A stretch of 64,000 nucleotides of DNA. Source: Branchiostoma floridae. Lineage: Eukaryota; Chordata; Leptocardii; Amphioxiformes; Branchiostomatidae. Under the pieces are notes generated by a model. The model ran no database searches and had not been told where the DNA came from. It saw nothing but the letters and a program-made list of their open reading frames with translations. This document shows, one piece after another, positions 587 to 52,300 of the stretch; positions within the stretch are counted from its first letter, which is position 1, and the number at the start of each line of letters is the position of its first letter. The position numbers were made by a program, and so were the translations under genes. The stretch spans positions 7,348,870 to 7,412,869 of the forward strand of contig NC_049991.1 in assembly GCF_000003815.2 (NCBI RefSeq). Direction: 5' to 3'.

Positions 587-3500
587 CTATGGTGTGCTGC
601 TGTGGGAGATTGCAACAAGAAGGAGGCCATATGACGAATGTAAAACATCGGAGTAACTTTATCATTTGACAATTTCTTGCCATTTTGCTTTCCAAGTAGA
701 ATTTACCAGCGAACTGAATATTTGTAGTACGACGTTTAAAACAGTTGGTTCACGGTTTAACTTCCAACTATCGTTACAAATGAAGCTATGGCATCTTGAT
801 AACAATTAAATGGCATACTTTAACTTTATTTCCATTGCAGACACAACGCATCTCCCGTTTGCTGTTTGGGCCACTGAGAAGAAGGGACTGCGCCCTGACA
901 TGACGATGGTCCCAGTAGATCTACCGTACGTGGGCAACGTCAGCCATTTGATGCAAAAATGTTGGAGCCAAAATCCAGAAGACAGGCCTTCATTCGATGG
1001 TGAGAAGGTTGCGTTATCATTATTTTATATCAATACAATCGATCTGCTATAAATATCTACTGATGCAAATCAATTTCGCCTGAATAATAGAGCATCCCAC
1101 ATATGAAGTAATTTAGCAGCTTCAATCTTTAAGTCTCCATCTATAGTTTCGTCAATGGAAGATTTTGAAAAGGAATATATTTCATTTGCAAAGGAAATGC
1201 GGGCATGATCAGGTGAAAACACACAAATCTTTCCCAAACAAATCCTTGTCAATCTTTATCATCATTTTCTACTAAAAATGTGCGTAGACGAAGTAACTTA
1301 CCTTTTCTCGCCATTAATTGCCAGAGTGCGAAGAACAACTACGCGATGTGAACAGCAAATCCAGCAAAGAGGACATTCTCGACGCCATTACCTACGTAAA
1401 GATGCATACGACGACTACCAAAGGTACAAATGAAAGCAACCCTCAAATCTTTGTCTCTGGTGAACGCATGCAAGTATGAAATTCGTCGCATATCTTGAAC
1501 TTATTCTTCAGTACTGGAACGAACAGTAAACTATAGTCAAATGGTTGAATATAGCAAACACAGATTACTGTCATAATTCATAAGTAACAATAATATATAC
1601 GTGATATTGACGAAGTTAGTTATCAAATTAGTTATCAAATTTCTTGCAGCAAAAGGCGCCGGCAGCACGTTCGAAGGAAGTGAGGAATTCCCGTCGCCGA
1701 CTTCTATGCCTACCGCTTTCAAAGCTCCACAGGCTCGAAGTGGTAAGTGCCCCCAACACCATAACCATCTTTCAGTTTTATATAATAAACATGCAGAGTA
1801 ACACTCGGCCACACAATTAATTTTATGAATGACATATTTTAGGGACCGCAAGTCTGAAACCGGAGTGGAGCCAGTTACGTTTCACATCGTGGACTTCTTT
1901 CGATTTTATTACAGTTTCATGTACAAAATCATCGTCGCATTTCATAATTCATAGTGCGTGTAGTTTGCGAAGCTCCTGTAAGTTGAGAAGTTTGGCTTTC
2001 TCAGTGGGGTTCTGAGCTAAATAAACTTTGTGAAAAAGATACAAAAGGCTGCAATCAATACAGGTGTTATCCTTAGTTTGAGGCTCCCGAATAGTAAATA
2101 GACCTATAGATATGATAAACTTGTAGTTTTGGCCTTACATTTTGATGATTAATACCCAGGAGGTCTTGTTAATATTTGCTGTATATGTAGTTGATGATGC
2201 AGGTTATGAAAAAAGCCTGTTGATGAAATGACGTGTAGATATTTCCTGGTTGAGAATAATACGATGTAATCTGTTGTGACCCAAAATTGTTTTTCAATTC
2301 AGAACCCCTTTTGACAGCTGAGGCGTCATATGCATTTGATGCCTACATTTGCTACTGCACAGAGGACAGAGATTTTGTAATGCAAATGGAGGAAAAGCTG
2401 GAGAACCCACCGTTTGGCACTGGTAAAAAAGGCCTCAGGCTGTGGTACGCTGAACGAGACGCTCTACCGGCCATGCCAATCTACGACACCGTACGAGAAG
2501 GCATTGCGAGGTAAGTTGTCTTTCACAATCCACTACCTCTCCTCGTATCTGAACTGTAATTCAGGTATAACACAGAGGCAACTTTCAAATTACAAATGTC
2601 CAACCAAACCTTTAAAATAGTATAAATAAAATATTTAATTCACCATGAAGTCCTGTGAATTTAGAAAAGGAGTCAAATGTACATGTTACATATGTCCTTT
2701 GATATACATTTGGTTAAAGTGCGGAATAAAATGTAACGTTATCTTCATAACGTGTTGTTAATGAACGCATTTCATTCTTTGAGTAAGAGGTAGACTTGTC
2801 CTTGATCATCTGACTAATGCATATGCTAACTTTACCAACTTCAATGGTTTACTGCCTGCCAACGCGAGTCCTCATCCACTGTTACATCAAGAGAATATGT
2901 CTTTCATCCGAACATCAATCAGAACGAATACATGCACTATTGAGGCTAGGGGTCACCCTGTCAAAGGGAGTCTATCAGGAGTGAAAAAACATGCCCTACA
3001 TTCACTATGATCAGAACTATTTAGTAATCAGGTTCTTGATTTGTTGATGGATGTGGCGTGGATGCTTTTATAATTTGTTTTCACTTTCATGACAGATCCA
3101 GGCACGTGGTCCTTGTGCTCACACCAGAGGCCCTGATAAGTCGGAAGTGTACGTTTGAAATGGAATATGCTGCAACTTTACCCCCAGGTATGCTACATGT
3201 ACCCTTGTACATATGAAACTAATAAATGTATAGATTTAGTATTATCAAAAACAACACTTCTTAGATAAAAAATTTAAATTGATATATGTGCCTGGGTGCT
3301 AATATAATGGCATTCAGCATTTTGGGATAGTTACATTCGTGTGGATAGTTAAGCACTTGTGACATGTTTTTGTGTGGATGATATTCAGTACCAGGGACAG
3401 GTACGTATGTGGATGGCTTTCAACACTAAAAAAATTGTCATCACTAAGAAAATGTTTGCCTACTGTTTGTGGATGGTGTTCAGCACTAAGGACAGACATG

Positions 3501-3871
3501 TTCGTGTGTGAATGGTGTACAGCACCAGGGACATATCTGTTTTATTTGTACGAATGGTGTACAGGCAATGTGTTTTGCATAATCAATTTTTTCAAAGAGA
3601 TTTTGATAGCATGTTTTACATGTAATGCACTAGTGTCTTAGTGTCTACACCTTCTTTGTGGTCCACATGCTTTTCTACCCAGATTCTGAACATGCTTTCT
3701 ATCATCTCCATTTCAGAAGCAAGACGGCAGAAAGTGATAACAGTTATGTACAAGCCAACGGACCTTCCCTCATGGTTGAAGTCCATGACCATCCTCGACT
3801 ATGCCAAAGAGGAGAGAGTCAGGAAAGATTGGTTCTGGGTTAAACTAGCAAAAGCCATCTCCAACCAGTAG
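587..3871 (+). CDS. Protein kinase-TIR domain fusion (3' part; 5' end outside window)
   Basis: Seven exons: 587-639, 841-999, 1325-1423, 1650-1742, 2303-2510, 3096-3187, 3717-3871 (stop TAG). Phases join throughout. The first two exons encode the end of a kinase domain: YGVLLWEIATRRRPYDE (subdomains IX-X), then HLMQKCWSQNPEDRPSF, where the CW...RP signature of subdomain XI is typical of TKL/tyrosine-like kinases. A Ser/Thr/Gly-rich linker of about 65 residues follows (exons 3-4). The last three exons form a complete TIR domain: box 1 YAFDAYICY, a box 2-like ERDALPAMP, KCTFEMEYA, and box 3 near DWFWVKLA just before the stop. TIR domains mediate homotypic adaptor interactions or cleave NAD+; the kinase would signal through phosphorylation. 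A role in innate immune signalling is inferred. The ATP-binding and catalytic loops lie outside the window, so kinase activity cannot be judged. Confidence 0.85.
3335..3570. repeat. Degenerate minisatellite in the last TIR-gene intron
   Basis: Five or so imperfect units of about 40-60 bp share the core TGTGTGGATGGTGTTCAGCA followed by CCAGGGACA-like sequence. It lies wholly in the intron between the last two exons of the kinase-TIR gene. The open frames through it are by-products of the repetition. Confidence 0.6.
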
Positions 3872-10900: not shown

Positions 10901-13900
10901 AACCTCAGGCCTGGAGAATTCATTGCTGATGATGTTCCATCTGATTCTGACCTGTAACATCAAAGTTAAAGAAAATATAATTTCGTAGATACAGATATGA
11001 TATACATGTTTATATAGATGTACTACACACCCATTTGATCATGGGTTGATTAAGTATTTTTCTAATTCTTGTTACATTTGAACAAAATATACCACAAGCT
11101 TGTGAATCGTTTAACTGTACATACAACATTCTGTACTCTTTACATATTACAAAAAGTATAGAGCTACAGAGTATATTAATTTTCTTAATTTGAAGACTAG
11201 ATTCTGAGCTTACCTTTTCTGTGTTAAGCAGTTCCATTCGGAAATACTGAAGGAAAGAAAAAGAAATTGTGTTATCATTTTTAAAATGATTGTCAACCCT
11301 TACCCTAGATCAAGTTTCTGTAACATTTGCGTACTGATGAATAGCAACATTCAGTTCATACAGAGATGAGTCACAGTAGGCAAAAAGTAAAAGTTTTGTT
11401 CTATACTGTTGTCATGTACCTACTCGTACTAGAAAATCATTAATTCTATCCAAATAGACTTATGAAGATGTGCATGGTGTTTTCACTAATCTCACATTCA
11501 ACATAAACAAACAATACACTGTACAATCAAACCTTAGACATGACTAACCTCCAGCCAGAGCTGTTTAGACTCGGGGTGTGTACGGAGTGCCCTCTGTAGC
11601 AGACTGCGAGCGTTGTCAGCTGACTGGTTCTCTTCTAGTTCCCACTTAGCTGCCATGATCCACAGGCCTGACACATGGAAACATGTTGTTTAGTTGTTTT
11701 ATTTTGTTCCTTTCAATTTGCTTGTTTGTGTATCTTACATTGACCTTGCTATGAACAAGTTCAGCCCAAAACAAATACTATATGATTCTCTCACTTTAGG
11801 TAATACTTTTGCAACTGAAGTTGAACATATTAAATCATTGACTCTTATAGTATACACACAATGTGATTGGCTAACTAGGGTATCAACTATCAACTTTTGG
11901 AAATGACTGTATCAGCCGATCAGATTTTATCATGATTTCAAAATGATTAGGTTAGTTGTATCAGCCAATCAAGTATTCTGTTTGTAGACTTGATCATCAA
12001 CCCAACGGAAAATGATTGACACCTGACCTGGTTTGTTGGTGTGCATGGACAGCAGACTGGCAAACATCTTGGACAGCTGGATACGTTTATTCTGAGCAAC
12101 AAAGACAAAAAACAGCATATTTTCCATCAAAATAATCACTGTGTCAAAACTATACACATAAGACATGTAAGACTGAATTATTTCATGGTTGACTTATCTG
12201 TGGACAAATCAAATGATGTATTGAAGAGAAACAAATGGCAATTAAAAAAAAAGTCAAACTTACCCATTTCTTGCAGAACTCGATATGTGACATCCACATC
12301 TTCAAATCTTCCTAAAAAAAGGATAAAACACACAAATTGGTGCTTAATTAAGACCAAAACAAGTACACCAACAGTACAAATAAGAATAGAAATTAGAATG
12401 ACAAAAAAGCACACAAAAAACATAAGTAAGTAGATGACTTACTGGCCACTTCCTGATAGCTCTCTGAAATACAAAATGTGGAAGTTAGTAAAAGAATAAG
12501 TCATGGTTAACATTACAAAAATTAGGTTGGCATCCATTCGTCTTGTAAGACAATGGTAGGCAGACAGCTATTTGCTGTCTGCCTGGCCTGCACGTGACTT
12601 TTTAAGGTGAAGGAGGGTTGTGCACTTCCTTCTCCACCCTCTCATCTACTGGTGCACTAAGTCTCACAGGGACAGAATTGCATGCCACTTGCAAGACTGC
12701 CCCAGCAGACGCAGGTTTGTTGTCAGGTAAAAGCTTACTAAATGTACAAGTCATGTAGTCTAACAGCCTTTGAAGCCATAGACACAAGCGGTCGTCATCT
12801 ACTGTGTTTAGGGCAGGGTATAGAAGGAAGAGCCCACTTCTATTTCAAGCGTCTTTTACCTCCCCAAACGAAGTCAGGTACTCATTTATACACCTGGATT
12901 TGAGTGAGGGAGTCACAATTATATAAGTGCAATTCCCAAAAACAACACATCTAACAAGGTATCAAATTTATGGCCTTTTGATCCTGTATCTTCTATTGTT
13001 CACATTGATGATGATGGAGTGACTAATGGCTGTGCAATAATTTTAGCAAGCAACAATAAAATCAAGCTGAACTCACCTTGAATAGATAATGGATCCTTCC
13101 AACAATGGCATATTCTATCTCTTCCTTCTTGAAGAAATAGCCCAGGTTCTGAAAAAGTGTAAGATAGATTTGATACAAGAAAAACCTTGTGAAGTGTATA
13201 ACTAAAGGCACTTGCATCTATCTATTGAACAAGTTTTAATAGATGATAAGTTTCTCAAAAAAACATTTACTTTGGTCACACTGACTTACAGTCATATGCA
13301 TATATCATTTCACCATTTACATCAGAGCCGACCAACCTTCCCTCAAACGAGACGGGCGCTGATAGTGATACCGACTGCCAAGCACCTTTCACCCTTTGCT
13401 AACATCACACTTCCGGTCTGGATGTGCGACTTAGGCTTTGGGTCATTTCAACTTGATAAGGATCAGAGAACTGATCGAAAGCTTGTTGGTAAGTGCTTTA
13501 TTTCATTTGTGTACAGATATACTAGTATTAGTAGTAAGGTTTCAAAACTGTAACGCATTGTTCTTACCTCTCGTCTATGGTGTATAAGCGACAGTGTGTT
13601 GATCTCGTACTGGATGTATCGGAGAAAGTCTTCCTTCTTCTTGGTCCTGCGCACCAGTCTGTACTCATGGTCTGTTCTCTTCTTGATGATGGCTCTGTGT
13701 TGGTGGAGTTCATAATGAGAAAAAATCATTAGTAGTGCTTGCCATCAATCAAATACAATAATTATAAATCCCAAAATCTATGTTCACTTGTGGTAATCAC
13801 AGTGATATACATAATATCATGCAGTATTGTATATAATATTCACTTTCATCTTTGAAGTTTATCCTTTCAATCTAGTCGATGATAATTTTCCCTATCACGT

Positions 13901-14299
13901 CTTTTCAACACCTACATGTTAATGTAACTCTTGCACATCTGTCGATGTGTGTGTCTGTCTGTCTGTCTCTGTGTGAATGTGTCTATTAAAGAGGCTAAGA
14001 CTCACAAACAATTCTGTTATCATTTTCTCAACTCCATATCAAAATGAGCATCTTCTACTTGTTGAAGAAATCTTGCTGATCAAATGGTAAATTAATGGAA
14101 ACACTGTATAGGAACCTAAGTTACACTAAACAAACCACCGCCCCCCTCCCCATCCCCATCCCCATCCCAACCATACAAACATATGCAACCCTAAAATTTC
14201 AACCTACTTAATTTCGTGCTTGTCGAAGACGCCGACCCGTTCTAACTGCTCCAGCTCGGGGAGCATCTTCTCGATGTTCTGCTGAACAAACTCCGCCAT
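4922..14299 (-). CDS. UTP6: UTP6 small-subunit processome component (U3 snoRNA-associated protein 6)
   Basis: Complete gene of 21 coding exons and 599 aa; human UTP6 is about 597. Exons 5'->3': 14299-14208, 13694-13568, 13148-13077, 12463-12443, 12311-12264, 12091-12028, 11667-11549, 11246-11214, 10951-10904, 10621-10540, 10132-10048, 9876-9764, 9307-9236, 8999-8923, 8674-8597, 8129-7950, 7391-7314, 6804-6698, 6187-6121, 5336-5264, 5085-4922. All phases join. The start MAEFVQQNIEKMLPELEQLE, the motif EFCKKW, the motif NKPGLWIMAAKWELEE and the C-terminus TGHLEK match the family. UTP6 is built of half-a-TPR (HAT) repeats and acts in the nucleolar U3 snoRNP complex that processes pre-18S rRNA. 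Exon 4 is only 21 nt. Introns hold a LINE fragment (7075-7263) and a duplicated exon fragment (8192-8242). The start lies 543 bp from the repeat array that separates it from divergent DNAAF5. Confidence 0.95.
7075..7263 (+). mobile_element. 3'-terminal fragment of a CR1/L2-like non-LTR retrotransposon
   Basis: Plus-strand frame 7075-7212 reads YFPRTIVEWNLLPPS... SLDSFKERL and ends at TAA (7210). This FFPRTI-x-x-WN-x-LP pattern is the usual C-terminus of CR1/L2-type ORF2 proteins. The stop is followed by about 50 bp of 3' tail ending in a GATACAGATACA-like short repeat. It is 5'-truncated, as LINE copies usually are, and lies antisense in a UTP6 intron. The subfamily is not determined. Confidence 0.75.
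8192..8242 (-). pseudogene. Partial duplicate of UTP6 exon 16
   Basis: The 51 bp match 8061-8111 inside exon 16 at roughly 80-85% identity, in the same orientation, 131 bp away and on the transcript-upstream side. The copy has no splice sites of its own. Confidence 0.75.
8245..8362. repeat. Compound direct and inverted repeat in a UTP6 intron
   Basis: GATCGGAG(C/T)TGGCCCTAGGA occurs twice in direct orientation about 76 bp apart. Between the copies are inverted pieces (CTCCTAGGAG palindrome; AGTAGAATC with GATTCTACT). It looks like a small palindromic element; the family is unknown. Confidence 0.55.
12443..12463 (-). other. UTP6: 21-nt microexon of UTP6
   Basis: It is flanked by CAG acceptor and GTAAGT donor on the minus strand and encodes RAIRKWP. 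It joins in phase to the next exon (EDLKMWMSHIEFCKKW). Without it, the conserved block linking the N-terminal helices to the first HAT repeat would be broken. Confidence 0.85.
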
Positions 14300-14841
14300 C
14301 CTAACACTTCTCAACCGGCGACGTTACGGCAAAAACTAGGTAGAAGTTTTCTGACAAAATATCACTCTCCAAAATGCACGTGTGTGTGTCTGCCCAAGTG
14401 ACCTGACCCAGGGTCATATAACACTCTCGTTCCCAAGACTAACCGATAAATTTTAAAGAAAATAATTTCAAGATATGTTCTTAAAGTCACAAGTTTCTTA
14501 ATAAAGTCTTAACAATATGCATAAAATATTTCTTATATTTGATATTGAAATGATGTCGATTTTTGACTCTAGAGTTATCCTGGACACGAGAGTAGAAATT
14601 TCTGGATACGGGAGCGTGTAAGTTTCCTTTTTATGCAAATAAGAAAAAATATATGCAAGTCACTAAATCTCTAAATCTCTAAATCTCTCTTCGTCCTTCA
14701 ACTTTATCATCCTACTTTGCTATTTCCACTTTTCCACTTTTTTCTTTACTCTCTAATATTGCTTCAGGTGAGAAAATATGTCGTGATCTCTATAGACTTT
14801 ACCTAATTTGCATAAATCGGAAACTTATAATGTCTCGTTGC
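14300..14841. promoter_or_regulatory. UTP6 5' flank / remaining half of the UTP6-DNAAF5 intergenic promoter
   Basis: This 542-bp stretch upstream of the UTP6 start leads to the repeat array. It contains a short CTCTAAAT tandem run (about 14663-14690) and no gene. UTP6 and DNAAF5 are head-to-head, so before the array arrived the two starts would have been only about 0.6 kb apart. A shared bidirectional promoter is inferred; no core motif was recognised. Confidence 0.4.
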
Positions 14842-14846
14842 TTCAA

Positions 14847-15322
14847 GGTAGCAGAACACAGTATTAGTGGGCGAACCCCGGGGTGTATGACGCGGGTACA
14901 TAAAATAGTACGGATAAACTTGTTGAAGGAGAGGTAAAAAGCCTTATTTGAGGGGCAGCCAGATATAACCTGTGCTACGTGGTCACGGAAGGTGTCGACT
15001 CTGAGACTGCATGGTTTGGATTGTGCCAGTTTTCTATTTTGTGTATAAATGCGCTCCATTACGCAACTGCCTTTCTAGCGTGAGCCGGCTGCAGTTCTGT
15101 GACCTCCGCAGAGGGGCATTTCAAAGAGGGCGTGAGAAGACGATACGCCGACAGTATTTTTTTGTTTTTTAATATATTGTGGCTTGTACCTTCAACTCAA
15201 ACATATCCGATTTTGGTATTCCAAAAGTGCACCCTACTATATTTTTCATTGCGTCGAAGCTAGTCACCTTGAGGCCCTTAACTATAGAAATCCCCATAGG
15301 CCGAAAACTGTGTTCTGCTACC
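14847..15322. mobile_element. 476-bp TIR element, copy 1
   Basis: The 16-bp perfect terminal inverted repeat GGTAGCAGAACACAGT is flanked by TTCAA at 14842-14846 and 15323-15327. It encodes no transposase, so it looks like a non-autonomous DNA transposon. A 5-bp TTCAA target duplication fits no superfamily I can name with confidence. Confidence 0.8.
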
Positions 15323-15444
15323 TTCAACCGCAACGGGTATTGGCCAAAAACTGACAAAAGCGTTATATTTGGGCAAAGTTGCTTGGTATGTCAGGTCCTG
15401 GCGTAGACTCCCTTGAAATAAGCCTGTTTGTTCTACCGTCAGAC

Positions 15445-15466
15445 GGCCGTTGCCATGGCAACGGCC
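15445..15466. promoter_or_regulatory. Perfect palindromic X-box (RFX site), spacer 1
   Basis: The core GTTGCCATGGCAAC (15449-15462) fits the RFX consensus GTNRCC-N(0-3)-RGYAAC on both halves. It is extended to a 22-bp perfect palindrome by flanking GGCC. Confidence 0.75.
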
Positions 15467-15846
15467 ACTTTGGGCCTTTCCCTATGCTTAACTATGGGAC
15501 TTAGTGTGAAAGCGCCTTTGGCCCGAAACCCGCACCCCCCCCCCTTTTCTGCGGCAACTAACCTTGAATCTAACCCTAAATCACTCCTAACGTAACAACA
15601 GACACAGATTGTCTCCGTTTTAATGAAAAGAGCAGCCAGAATAGTGAATTTGATCAGATAATGAGACCACTAAATGGCCCGTTCTATAAGCCCTGTACGG
15701 GGCCTACCTAGTGGCAGGTGCCAAAGTATAAAGTTGCCGAAATCTCAGCAACCGCTTGAAAGTGGGGAAAGTTAATTGGCAGAAGTTTACATCTTTACTA
15801 GTTTTGTTGTCTGAACGAAAAAAAATCCAAGGTCAAGTTCGTTCAA

Positions 15847-16322
15847 GGTAGCAGAACACAGTATTAGTGGGCGAACCCCGGGGTGTATGACGCGGGTACA
15901 TAAAATAGTACGGATAAACTTGTTGAAGGAGAGGTAAAAAGCCTTATTTGAGGGGCAGCCAGATATAACCTGTGCTACGTGGTCACGGAAGGTGTCGACT
16001 CTGAGACTGCATGGTTTGGATTGTGCCAGTTTTCTATTTTGTGTATAAATGCGCTCCATTACGCAACTGCCTTTCTAGCGTGAGCCGGCTGCAGTTCTGT
16101 GACCTCCGCAGAGGGGCATTTCAAAGAGGGCGTGAGAAGACGATACGCCGACAGTATTTTTTTGTTTTTTAATATATTGTGGCTTGTACCTTCAACTCAA
16201 ACATATCCGATTTTGGTATTCCAAAAGTGCACCCTACTATATTTTTCATTGCGTCGAAGCTAGTCACCTTGAGGCCCTTAACTATAGAAATCCCCATAGG
16301 CCGAAAACTGTGTTCTGCTACC
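15847..16322. mobile_element. 476-bp TIR element, copy 2
   Basis: Same length and termini as copy 1, flanked by TTCAA on both sides. Both flanks are spacer rather than the outer genomic sequence. Confidence 0.8.
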
Positions 16323-16444
16323 TTCAACCGCAACGGGTATTGGCCAAAAACTGACAAAAGCGTTATATTTGGGCAAAGTTGCTTGGTATGTCAGGTCCTG
16401 GCGTAGACTCCCTTGAAATAAGCCTGTTTGTTCTACCGTCAGAC

Positions 16445-16466
16445 GGCCGTTGCCATGGCAACGGCC
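16445..16466. promoter_or_regulatory. Perfect palindromic X-box (RFX site), spacer 2
   Basis: Identical 22-bp palindrome around GTTGCCATGGCAAC in the second spacer. Confidence 0.75.
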
Positions 16467-16851
16467 ACTTTGGGCCTTTCCCTATGCTTAACTATGGGAC
16501 TTAGTGTGAAAGCGCCTTTGGCCCGAAACCCGCACCCCCCCCCCCCCCCTTTTCTGCGGCAACTAACCTTGAATCTAACCCTAAATCACTCCTAACGTAA
16601 CAACAGACACAGATTGTCTCCGTTTTAATGAAAAGAGCAGCCAGAATAGTGAATTTGATCAGATAATGAGACCACTAAATGGCCCGTTCTATAAGCCCTG
16701 TACGGGGCCTACCTAGTGGCAGGTGCCAAAGTATAAAGTTGCCGAAATCTCAGCAACCGCTTGAAAGTGGGGAAAGTTAATTGGCAGAAGTTTACATCTT
16801 TACTAGTTTTGTTGTCTGAACGAAAAAAAATCCAAGGTCAAGTTCGTTCAA

Positions 16852-17327
16852 GGTAGCAGAACACAGTATTAGTGGGCGAACCCCGGGGTGTATGACGCGG
16901 GTACATAAAATAGTACGGATAAACTTGTTGAAGGAGAGGTAAAAAGCCTTATTTGAGGGGCAGCCAGATATAACCTGTGCTACGTGGTCACGGAAGGTGT
17001 CGACTCTGAGACTGCATGGTTTGGATTGTGCCAGTTTTCTATTTTGTGTATAAATGCGCTCCATTACGCAACTGCCTTTCTAGCGTGAGCCGGCTGCAGT
17101 TCTGTGACCTCCGCAGAGGGGCATTTCAAAGAGGGCGTGAGAAGACGATACGCCGACAGTATTTTTTTGTTTTTTAATATATTGTGGCTTGTACCTTCAA
17201 CTCAAACATATCCGATTTTGGTATTCCAAAAGTGCACCCTACTATATTTTTCATTGCGTCGAAGCTAGTCACCTTGAGGCCCTTAACTATAGAAATCCCC
17301 ATAGGCCGAAAACTGTGTTCTGCTACC
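16852..17327. mobile_element. 476-bp TIR element, copy 3
   Basis: Same length and termini as copy 1, flanked by TTCAA, with spacer on both sides. Confidence 0.8.
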
Positions 17328-17449
17328 TTCAACCGCAACGGGTATTGGCCAAAAACTGACAAAAGCGTTATATTTGGGCAAAGTTGCTTGGTATGTCAGG
17401 TCCTGGCGTAGACTCCCTTGAAATAAGCCTGTTTGTTCTACCGTCAGAC

Positions 17450-17471
17450 GGCCGTTGCCATGGCAACGGCC
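17450..17471. promoter_or_regulatory. Perfect palindromic X-box (RFX site), spacer 3
   Basis: Identical 22-bp palindrome in the third spacer. It is the closest to DNAAF5, about 0.9 kb upstream of its ATG. Confidence 0.75.
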
Positions 17472-17852
17472 ACTTTGGGCCTTTCCCTATGCTTAACTAT
17501 GGGACTTAGTGTGAAAGCGCCTTTGGCCCGAAACCCGCACCCCCCCCCCCTTTTCTGCGGCAACTAACCTTGAATCTAACCCTAAATCACTCCTAACGTA
17601 ACAACAGACACAGATTGTCTCCGTTTTAATGAAAAGAGCAGCCAGAATAGTGAATTTGATCAGATAATGAGACCACTAAATGGCCCGTTCTATAAGCCCT
17701 GTACGGGGCCTACCTAGTGGCAGGTGCCAAAGTATAAAGTTGCCGAAATCTCAGCAACCGCTTGAAAGTGGGGAAAGTTAATTGGCAGAAGTTTACATCT
17801 TTACTAGTTTTGTTGTCTGAACGAAAAAAAATCCAAGGTCAAGTTCGTTCAA

Positions 17853-18328
17853 GGTAGCAGAACACAGTATTAGTGGGCGAACCCCGGGGTGTATGACGCG
17901 GGTACATAAAATAGTACGGATAAACTTGTTGAAGGAGAGGTAAAAAGCCTTATTTGAGGGGCAGCCAGATATAACCTGTGCTACGTGGTCACGGAAGGTG
18001 TCGACTCTGAGACTGCATGGTTTGGATTGTGCCAGTTTTCTATTTTGTGTATAAATGCGCTCCATTACGCAACTGCCTTTCTAGCGTGAGCCGGCTGCAG
18101 TTCTGTGACCTCCGCAGAGGGGCATTTCAAAGAGGGCGTGAGAAGACGATACGCCGACAGTATTTTTTTGTTTTTTAATATATTGTGGCTTGTACCTTCA
18201 ACTCAAACATATCCGATTTTGGTATTCCAAAAGTGCACCCTACTATATTTTTCATTGCGTCGAAGCTAGTCACCTTGAGGCCCTTAACTATAGAAATCCC
18301 CATAGGCCGAAAACTGTGTTCTGCTACC
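17853..18328. mobile_element. 476-bp TIR element, copy 4, adjoining the DNAAF5 start
   Basis: Same termini; the right TTCAA (18329-18333) adjoins unique sequence leading to the DNAAF5 ATG at 18364. A TATAAAT motif at 18050-18056 inside this copy is a candidate core promoter for DNAAF5. That use is inference. Confidence 0.8.
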
Positions 18329-18363: not shown

Positions 18364-19443
18364 ATGGCGTACGAAGAGACGATTCAAACGAGTGCCGTCC
18401 AGAATCTTGGCCTTCAGCGCCACATCAACTGTCTTACCGACGACAACCGCACCACCAGGCGGAGGGCGCTGGACTCCCTTCGTAAGGAAACCGTCGACAA
18501 GAAGCTAGAGCCCACGGTGTTGCAAGGAGTCTTCGTCGAAATCTTGAAACCGGTATGTCTAGTGTTGCCCCCCTCCCCACCTGTTTGTAAATTTCAAATT
18601 TCCCGTCGACTGTGAATGGACTTTATTCATTCGTACATCACATTTAGCTGTTTCTAACGTGACCAAACGTATATGATAATTTCATAAATGTATCATCATC
18701 GTAGACTTACTTTTTTCAGTTACCAGGGTATAAACAAAGACAGTTACTCACTGCCATCAACTTGGTTTTACGAGGAGGTTGTGGGGCCCTATAATTAAGT
18801 ATAACCTCCTTGCCTTGGTATGATATGTGTAATGTAATTTTCAAAACTGGGCCAGGGCCTCCTTTCGGAGTTGTGCGCCCTCGGCATTAGACACATTAGA
18901 CGCGATTAGAACAATAAACACCAGTGCTCGCATATGGTCCTAGTTGGGGGCAGAATTGGGGCAGAATTGCTATCTCCGATTGCTCTGTTGGTACTTATGA
19001 CAGGCAGCAACAAATTTATTGTTGTTGTTGTTGTCTCTCTAACCGCTTCAGATTCGTCAGTATCTGGTCACATGTGCTTTGAATTTAAAATATCTCTTAA
19101 CATGTTTACCTTCAGGTTCTAAAGAGCTTCTCAGACCCAGTTGAGAAATGTCGAGAACTGGCCATACAGCTGGTAGACAGTTTCCTGTCCAGTGTCCCTG
19201 ACCCCCCGGAAACTCTCCCCTACGTCTTCCCCACCCTGGTGCAGCGTCTCGGACAGAAGGACATCACTGAACCGTCTGAGGAACTACGACTCATGCTCGT
19301 GGAGACTTTGACGCGTATCGTCGACCTCTCGGGGCAGGAGCTCGCGGTCTACCTCGACGACATTGTGAAGATCTTACAGCGTACGATCGTGGACCCGTTC
19401 CCGGACGTGAAGAAGGAGAGCTGTCGGTGCGCAGGAAAGGTGG

Positions 19444-49373: not shown

Positions 49374-52300
49374 GCGCCTGGCGTCGAAGACGACGAAGAC
49401 GGTATTACGTGTACCCGGTCGTGCAACCGGCTGTGGTACAGATCGTGACACCGACACCGACACGAGGTAAGAGCACTCTTGTTTTCAATTTATTCAAAGA
49501 AATAACAGAAACTACAGACTCATCAGTATCATCCCTTGCAATTGTTGATCAGTGTTGTGGCCATTCATACTGTCATCCTTAGTACCTATTAGATATTTGA
49601 CCAGTGGAATACCACCTGAGGAATGACCATCTAATTGTAAAGAAGACAAAGTTAGCCATCCAATATTGCAGTATAATGTTATTCTTAGCTGAATTTGTTG
49701 TGTAGTTGTCCGCAGCGATGGACCCTGCATACCGATAGTTCTAATCGTGAATGATATTGTAGATGCTCGACACGTACGTCTGCGTATCACATATGAGCCA
49801 GCACACACCATGGCGCAATAGTAAGTGAGTCGGATCTGCATAACTTGCGTGGTCGCGGCTTTTCTCAAATTCGGAGCCTCCTAGTCTCAATGAAAGTGCA
49901 AATGGGAAATTAATATCTGAACAAGATCTGAACCACTGAACTCTCTTGGTCTGTTATTATAGATGCCTCCCCGCCGGCTATCACGGGCTGCCCTAACGTG
50001 ATTCAGCGTACCCTGTATCCAGGCCAGACCAGGGTGTACATTGGATGGCAACTTGACATACACGACAGTAGAAATGGAAATGTTGGGTGAGTAACTAACA
50101 AAAAGCATTCCATTGAAATGCGGTGTTGATTGTGTGCAAACATGACAAGAGTTCAAAGACCTCATATGTCCATAAAATGATATGATATGATAATGTAAAT
50201 GACTTTCACATTTACATGATCAATGCTTGGTTATGTACACCTTTAAATAATCTACACCGGTAACAATATTGATTGTCCTATCATTTAACATTTGGAAGAA
50301 TTATCGCGCTTTTACATGAATTATGCAAATTAGGTACGTATCTACTTAATTGGTATCTGTTAATGCTTCACATGCCAGAAAATGCATTTGGGTCCTATAA
50401 TGGAAAAGACTGCAAATATTGATTTCCCCATTAAATACGCAAATTAAGTCACAGTTTGCATAATTTTCACTTTACGATGTACATCTCTGTCTAAGCTACC
50501 TACCTACCAAATATCATCTAAAATTTTTGATTTTGACCAAAACGCCCCTGCGCTGCAGTTCCACAACGACCAAGTATGCAAACATACACCACGCATTCCT
50601 TACGTCACAAGCTATTTGCCACCAGAAAATCAAGACCATAGCACATCCAGGTCAAAAGATACAAAAATAGAATTTCTGTTGCAGTACCAAGGTCACGTAC
50701 CAGGGGGACCCAAAATTGACATTGACCTTCGTCTTCTCAACACCTACCTACATACCAAATATCATCGTAATCCATCCATCCATTCAAGGGGACAAAAAGC
50801 TTACACCAGTGTGAAAGTTTATCTTAGATGTTAAATTTGATTATGACAAAAATAAAATTGTTCGCTACACGTTAAAAATGAGCGAGGGCCGATAACAAAC
50901 TTCGAGCAACCTTTAACATATTCCTGATGTCACTCGTTCATAAACTCGTGCGTGCAATGATAATTGGGTTAATAAGCAGCCAAAGGGGACTGACCGATTC
51001 AGTCTAAAATTCTGATGATTTCACCGGAAGTAGAAACTACTTTTGCTTGCTCTTATTATATTCATTAAAGGCTTATCTAGCTATTTTCTCACAAATTGTG
51101 TGCTTTAACAACATACAGACTACACAATCCGGTGGGCCTTCAGCCTTACCGCTCAGACGGACGGGTCTTCTACTTTGGAGACTACTTCGAACTGGGCACA
51201 TACACAAACTCCTACCCTGCAAGGGACTACTCTGGAAACATTGCCACCTGCACTGTTACAGTACATGTAAAAGGTGGGGAAACACGCAGCTTTACAACAT
51301 TACTAAGTAATCTCTGCTAACGCCACAGCAAGCAAATCTTATGAATGCCACCTTCAGGGCTTCTGATTTCATTAATGAAATCCTCTGCAGACTCCAAATC
51401 TAATGCGAAATGGTGGAAATACAACGCGGGTAAACAACAAGACTGCCATGAATTTTGTGACAAGAATTGAATCGACACAACATGGTATCACAGCCAACAA
51501 GTCTTTCATTTCTGTATTCCAAAGGTACTTAAAGTGACACTAGACTAGTATCACCTACCAAGTTGACAACTATAGTCATAGCTTCCACATAGGTGTCACT
51601 TTTACTATCGAATTAGTCTCTACATGTTTCTCACTAGTGTTACTTCTACAAGTACAGTCAAGATTACCACATAGCATATTTTCACACTTTGGTACTTTCT
51701 CGTTATGTTGATCATGTCCAGAGGGGGATCAATTCTTCGTTTGTTTCCAAGTGGGTGAGAATTAATGAGCAAGCTGATGCCATCCATAACATTTATTTGC
51801 TGTGGCCTAATGCTTGAAAACAAATACCTTGCAGCAACATTTTGTCCATCCCTGCCACAACCAACGGACGGCTACGTCACGTGTAGCCAGGGAGAGGCAG
51901 AGGGATCGGTATGCCGGTACAGCTGTCAGACGGGCTTCGCAAGAACATCTGGCACCGAAGTACGGGCCTGCATCAACGGGTACTGGACCGGATCTCAAGT
52001 CGTGTGTTCCAGTAGGTGCATTTGCTTGAGCCCTATAAACGGCTTTATATGCAGCATGCAACTATTTTAAGAAAACCAGTCGCCTTTTTAAGGACTTAAA
52101 GCTCCTTTGACACATTTGACTAGCTTCGACAGTATATGTTCTTGATCACGAAAAGATAGCCAGAAGCGTATTTTTTCCGACATTTGACTGGGCTCAAGGA
52201 CCTCGGCCAATCTCTAAAAATCGCACGATCATTGAGAGAACGCCGTTCGACTCGTCGGTTGAAAGATTTTGCTGCTATGTGACTCTTACATGTATAGGGC

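Follow-up and report, generated by a model that had tools for sequence, protein, structure and literature searches.

The three palindromic RFX-type sites ahead of DNAAF5 in amphioxus lie within an array that is very probably a transposed mobile composite, the sites being a family trait of one of its two component repeats. The window analysed (64,000 nucleotides, contig C13:7348870-7412869) contains this array between the head-to-head genes UTP6 (left, minus strand) and DNAAF5 (right, plus strand). Its layout is E-S-E-S-E-S-E, with four copies of a 476-bp element with inverted ends (E) alternating with three copies of a spacer (S, 514-519 bp; Table 1). The four E copies are identical to one another, and so are the three S copies except for a poly-C run with 10, 15 and 11 residues, respectively; such identity marks recent spread or homogenisation. 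TTCAA is present at both outer ends of the array and also at the inner E-S joints. Elsewhere within the window, E and S gave only short chance-level matches. A second array with E and S was found about 20 kb to the left of the window array, beside assembly gaps (L055, C13:7341717-7343840).

Table 1. Positions of the array components, the palindromes and the adjoining gene ends in the window
Feature	Position	Strand	Basis
UTP6 5' end, head to head with DNAAF5; start codon at 14299	13466..14299	-	start codon judged by eye
Left target-site duplication TTCAA	14842..14846	+	sequence
E copy 1, 476 bp, inverted ends GGTAGCAG...CTGCTACC; without X-box or RFX half-site	14847..15322	+	
S spacer 1, 514 bp; with six RFX half-sites, the palindrome accounting for two	15328..15841	+	
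22-bp palindrome with perfect two-sided RFX-type site, copy 1	15445..15466		sequence match
E copy 2, identical	15847..16322	+	
S spacer 2, differing by poly-C length alone	16328..16846	+	
22-bp palindrome with RFX-type site, copy 2	16445..16466		sequence match
E copy 3, identical	16852..17327	+	
S spacer 3, differing by poly-C length alone	17333..17847	+	
22-bp palindrome with RFX-type site, copy 3	17450..17471		sequence match
E copy 4, identical; ends 35 bp ahead of the DNAAF5 ATG	17853..18328	+	
Right target-site duplication TTCAA	18329..18333	+	sequence
DNAAF5 exon 1, coding part	18364..18552	+	Pfam

Each S carries one perfect 22-bp palindrome (GGCCGTTGCCATGGCAACGGCC) that encloses the exact 14-mer GTTGCCATGGCAAC (at 15449, 16449 and 17454). 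The palindromes match the two-sided RFX X-box consensus RYYNYYN(1-3)RRNRAC, and the 14-mer is the exact palindromic consensus printed for Drosophila targets (PMC3414849, PMC4168999); as RFX-binding sites they are candidates. A preliminary description of this stretch had reported three perfect RFX-type palindromes, possibly multiplied by a tandem repeat, at 0.9-2.9 kb from the start codon of the next gene, DNAAF5, and all of this was confirmed, the distances to the ATG at 18364 being 893-2919 bp. Outside N runs, these three are the only perfect palindromes of at least 20 bp in the window. Two further ones of 16-18 bp occur at 51365 and 57858, and the 18-bp palindrome at 51365-51382 (GATTTCATTAATGAAATC) is unrelated to the RFX-type palindrome. 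The exact 14-mer was found at the three S places only; when up to three mismatches were allowed, seven matches were obtained in the window, a number equalled by 3 of 100 shuffles. Because the array units are copies, the three palindromes count as one motif and one event: they are real, but not independent.

The gene assignments rest on domain matches. DNAAF5 was identified by Pfam TPR_DNAAF5 on four exons (best E-value 3.3e-45) and HEAT_DAAF5 on a fifth (7.6e-34), exon 1 by itself scoring under the curated Pfam cut-off, and UTP6 by a PDB UTP6 homolog (E-value 7.5e-11) and Pfam U3_assoc_6 (1e-15). The right-hand TTCAA ends 30 bp ahead of the DNAAF5 ATG, and 547 and 35 bp of native flank remain between the two start codons; the array is thus a 3.5-kb insert within an interval that would otherwise measure about 580 bp. 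A search for a second haplotype with the DNAAF5 side of the locus returned one match only. Structured RNA was considered as a further component of the array and rejected: across the window, a single Rfam match reaches the gathering score, and it lies outside the array, and the three weak matches obtained for 14800-16400 under permissive settings all stay below that score. The former match (3461-3546, plus strand) is a mir-2060 precursor, which we take to be an amphioxus microRNA. No tRNA-like sequence was detected in the window by ARAGORN.

S is also rich in RFX half-sites. It contains six perfect half-sites in 514 bp, against at most four in any stretch of this length elsewhere in the window. 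Apart from the palindrome, S has four further perfect half-sites, a number reached by simulated sequences with the same dinucleotide steps at a frequency of 0.0046 (0.041 for a looser half-site); this excess was spotted post hoc, and 8 of 2,048 comparable patterns likewise reach four in S without the palindrome. When S was compared with its relative on contig C1 (71% identity by BLAST), the longest common runs were 24, 17, 17 and 17 bp. The palindrome plus GCC makes up one of the 17-bp runs, and another is ATCTCAGCAACCGCTTG, which includes an RFX half-site. One of the three C1 copies of the relative reads GTTACCATGGCAAC, and three of the five RFX-type sites of S (the palindrome counted as one) are lost in the C1 relative. 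In the comparison with the C8 relative (82%), the palindrome block is the fifth longest common run, with its first base changed. From these ranks, the palindrome is well kept between S subfamilies without being the best-kept block.

In the 513-Mb assembly, S gave at least 60 matches at about 24 loci, with 71-100% identity (40 of 244 first-look candidates were scored), and E adjoins S at all of the 21 loci read. The layouts at these loci include E-S-E, E-S-S-E and longer mixtures, as well as some S copies with a single E. The 22-mer palindrome occurs 52 times in the genome, and all 50 occurrences listed fall at S loci, in line with the caveat of the preliminary description that the sites may merely have been carried by the repeat. 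Two outer E ends, read as GGTAGCAG...CTGCTACC, were found at 11 of 16 loci examined, and eight of these 11 arrays are flanked by a direct duplication whose length varies between 4 and 5 bp (TTCAA in the window, and TTGT, TTGA, ATAAA, TCAA, TTAA, TCAA and TTCAA elsewhere); the divergent or gapped arrays L037, L053, L055, L067, L068 and L069 were left out of this count. Five of the eight are minimal E-S-E arrays of 1475-1479 bp. An exact duplication is absent at the other three two-ended arrays (L052, L054 and L058, the last of which runs on into a piece of S). Since TTCAA also occurs at the inner E-S joints, the window duplication is weak evidence when taken alone. It is the occurrence of S at about 24 loci, the constant adjacency of E and the duplications at eight of 11 arrays that identify a transposed composite element. 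The arrays are short and retain element ends, unlike satellites, which form long head-to-tail arrays without such ends.

These data also bear on whether S could be the native DNAAF5 promoter, complete with an ancestral X-box, that two E insertions enclosed and unequal crossing over multiplied. With E removed, 416 bp would separate the palindrome centre from the ATG, a usual X-box distance, and TTCAA stands on either side of S; the clustering of half-sites is likewise favourable. This origin is nevertheless extremely improbable, being ruled out by the genomic copies of S, which in places adjoin each other as S-S with no E between.

Several loci illustrate the behaviour of the element. At L066 (C11:21200500-21206000), the S copy starts where a TIR match breaks off, and the exon that codes for the TIR domain in an LRR-TIR (Toll-like) receptor gene therefore contains an S-E element. 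L070 (C12:15183500-15188500) contains E plus a truncated S without the palindrome, among histone genes. L060 and L061 are S-E copies without a left E, and at L061 TTAA flanks both the S start and the E end, which suggests that the start of S is able to act as an end of the element.

E has the features of a miniature inverted-repeat transposable element (MITE). Its terminal inverted repeats have 24-nt arms with 92% complementarity, its arrays are usually bordered by the short target-site duplications described above, and it is dispersed in many copies, with at least 41 matches as a lower bound (40 of 987 first-look candidates were scored), eight of those listed being without an S match. No coding capacity is apparent: the longest listed open reading frame (ORF) in E or S is about 90 aa, and a Pfam scan of four ORFs of E and S found no family. 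Judged by these sequence features, E is a short, many-copy, non-autonomous transposon, whose targets appear AT-rich and often TTAA-like.

The window array is thus very likely to stem from a single insertion, by a non-autonomous mobile composite, E-(S)n-E. In such a composite, two E copies flanking S would have their outer ends used, and the whole would move as a unit; n would change when E or S copies recombine unequally. Layouts with different n, E-S-S-E forms and target duplications were observed, the transposase and the recombination being presumed. The E-S-E-S-E-S-E form would have landed in the short upstream region common to UTP6 and DNAAF5, leaving 30 bp to the DNAAF5 ATG, at an empty site that would have read CTCGTTGC-TTCAA-AGCCC. 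S perhaps keeps the RFX palindrome for RFX-dependent transcription or germline access. Any effect on DNAAF5 would be a side effect of the landing, comprising three added RFX sites and a 3.5-kb shift of the former upstream region.

In mouse and fly, DNAAF5/HEATR2 is reported to be a direct target of RFX, with promoter-proximal sites; in vertebrates a palindromic X-box lies close to the start, within about 500 bp upstream, with an RFX3 ChIP peak, and Heatr2/DNAAF5 expression is down by about 55% in Rfx3-/- cells (PMC4168999). An RFX input to DNAAF5 from the three S sites is therefore possible, and the inserted X-boxes could have been co-opted as RFX-dependent DNAAF5 enhancers and kept for that function. 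The putative sites in the window differ from the usual X-box in lying inside a mobile repeat in three identical copies and, measured from the ATG, beyond the promoter-proximal range of vertebrate HEATR2. Between the two start codons only the S palindromes match the RYYNYYN(1-3)RRNRAC consensus, which is absent from E and the native flanks; this absence says little, because the rest of the window has about 1.6 matches per 1086 bp. The insertion, moreover, displaces the upstream region besides adding sites, and the window copies, being identical, are too young to show selection. Together with the lack of a recognised ciliary domain beside other S loci (see below), these points make co-option unlikely, and adjacency to a cilium gene does not in itself point to a cilium switch, because the palindromes came inside a widespread mobile repeat.

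The surroundings of 16 other S loci were surveyed with a Pfam scan of 50 ORFs, comprising all 48 of at least 110 aa in the flanks and two L066 ORFs that run into S; four of 20 loci had no ORF of this length, and genes with short exons would escape the scan. Some family was recognised at nine of the 16 loci, namely an ANF receptor (below the cut-off), a TRADD-like protein, a reverse transcriptase, C2H2 zinc fingers (two loci), a 7TM receptor, a UDP-glucuronosyltransferase, core histones with a retroelement endonuclease, and an LRR-TIR receptor. None of the 50 ORFs had a recognisable ciliary domain. The interpretation offered in the preliminary description is therefore partly supported. Its proposal of a cilium-specific arrangement finds no support, given the occurrence of S at about 24 loci, the lack of a ciliary domain nearby and the presence of the 14-mer in other repeat families, and the enrichment of spacer copies near ciliary genes that it envisaged came out negative in this small, exon-based test made without gene annotation.

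The 14-mer is abundant in the genome as a whole. The exact GTTGCCATGGCAAC occurs 2,478 times, compared with once for the reversed control and about one occurrence expected from base composition; with one mismatch allowed, the counts are 5,896 and 48, respectively. The reversed control contains CpG, which is under-represented in the window (observed/expected 0.44), and the excess is for this reason judged on the control and the base-composition estimate together. The 14-mer count is far from chance, and the motif is far from unique to the DNAAF5 locus. We sampled the first 42 sites on C1 (50 were listed; L031-L050 and L071-L090 are among those sampled), a non-random set, and compared their flanks with the motif masked. 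Thirty-three sites fell into four repeat families: 24 in family A, five in family C, two with S (at the same locus) and two in a fourth family. The remaining nine had no match to any other sampled site.

Family A, the main carrier in this sample, is an element of about 950 bp with the ends TTAACCCTAT...ATAGGGTTAA, i.e. TTAA followed by inverted ends that start with CCCT, and both ends were seen in four of eight aligned copies (L034, L036, L042 and L044). TTAA targets and CCCT-starting ends presumably mark piggyBac, and we take family A to be a piggyBac-like MITE. Each of its copies has one to seven CRE-like sites; GCCATCTTGG is present in seven of the eight, and CCAAT stands beside a CRE-like block in four, copies with these blocks being as far apart as 65-70% identity. 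The joining of CRE-like, YY1-like and RFX motifs in family A (L033, L034, L036, L040, L041, L042, L044 and L049) resembles a portable promoter. Palindrome retention among the sampled copies proves nothing, because the sample was picked by the motif. A search anchored in the flanks yielded 314 forward and 319 reverse matches (27 and 20 for the control), and the palindrome is exact in 57 of 100 listed copies, all with perfect anchors (counted by hand). Neutral decay at an assumed divergence of 3-6% would leave a fraction of 0.65-0.42 with the palindrome, and the genomic ratio of exact to one-mismatch sites would fit a divergence of about 9%; no clear extra conservation of individual family A palindromes was thus seen. 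As far as these sequences indicate, the family A copies that spread have had the motif, and individual copies are without a visible selective hold.

The palindrome might alternatively serve the element as a non-RFX signal, e.g. a binding or hairpin signal for transposition, since in S it is perfect over 22 bp and its 14-bp core is also present in other families. The largest of these families has TTAA ends. The palindrome is, however, internal in S and about 750 bp into family A, away from the ends, and at 22 C1 sites checked it extends over just 14-16 bp. The common feature is therefore the RFX consensus rather than longer arms, and a non-RFX role appears quite improbable. Our tentative alternative, which may well prove wrong, is that several unrelated non-coding transposon families carry a perfect RFX palindrome because RFX activates them in ciliated cells or in cells that form sperm; between them, these families would have scattered about 2,500 perfect and 3,400 one-mismatch sites, a mobile cilium/testis vocabulary open to genes like DNAAF5. 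The largest carrier family, A, adds CRE-like and YY1-like blocks to the palindrome. The germline part of this idea derives from the enrichment of CREB, RFX and JUN sites at the promoters of primate de novo genes, most of which are testis-expressed (PMC4697840).

The array resembles several known systems in part. In composite or macro-transposons, such as those of maize Ac/Ds, two element copies mobilise the DNA between them, and here two E copies likewise flank the mobilised DNA; the differences are that E and S show no coding domain and that multi-unit arrays and E-S-S-E forms occur. With MITE-derived arrays and satellites (Xstir, miDNA4 and double insertion, as described in PMC12628747), it shares a short inverted-end element, tandem units and dispersed short arrays, whereas here a second repeat of about 519 bp joins the element in each unit. 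From the kept element ends and the frequent target duplications, the array itself seems to move. Rodent SINE B2 elements spread CTCF sites. LTRs are reported at promoters of primate de novo genes (PMC4697840), and in both of these cases, as here, a binding motif is multiplied genome-wide by repeats; the motif in the present case differs in being a perfect RFX palindrome carried by at least four repeat families in one genome. A search of the literature on amphioxus transposons with transcription-factor sites found no mention of RFX.

A single locus with three X-boxes is thus explained by the landing of a transposon, and the question shifts to the palindromes across the genome. X-box scans for ciliary genes in the amphioxus genome will pick up many transposons. 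With 2,478 perfect palindromes, 33 of 42 sampled ones lying in repeats, the use of RFX by transposons for germline expression becomes testable, as does the possibility that ciliary genes have gained RFX sites from transposons.
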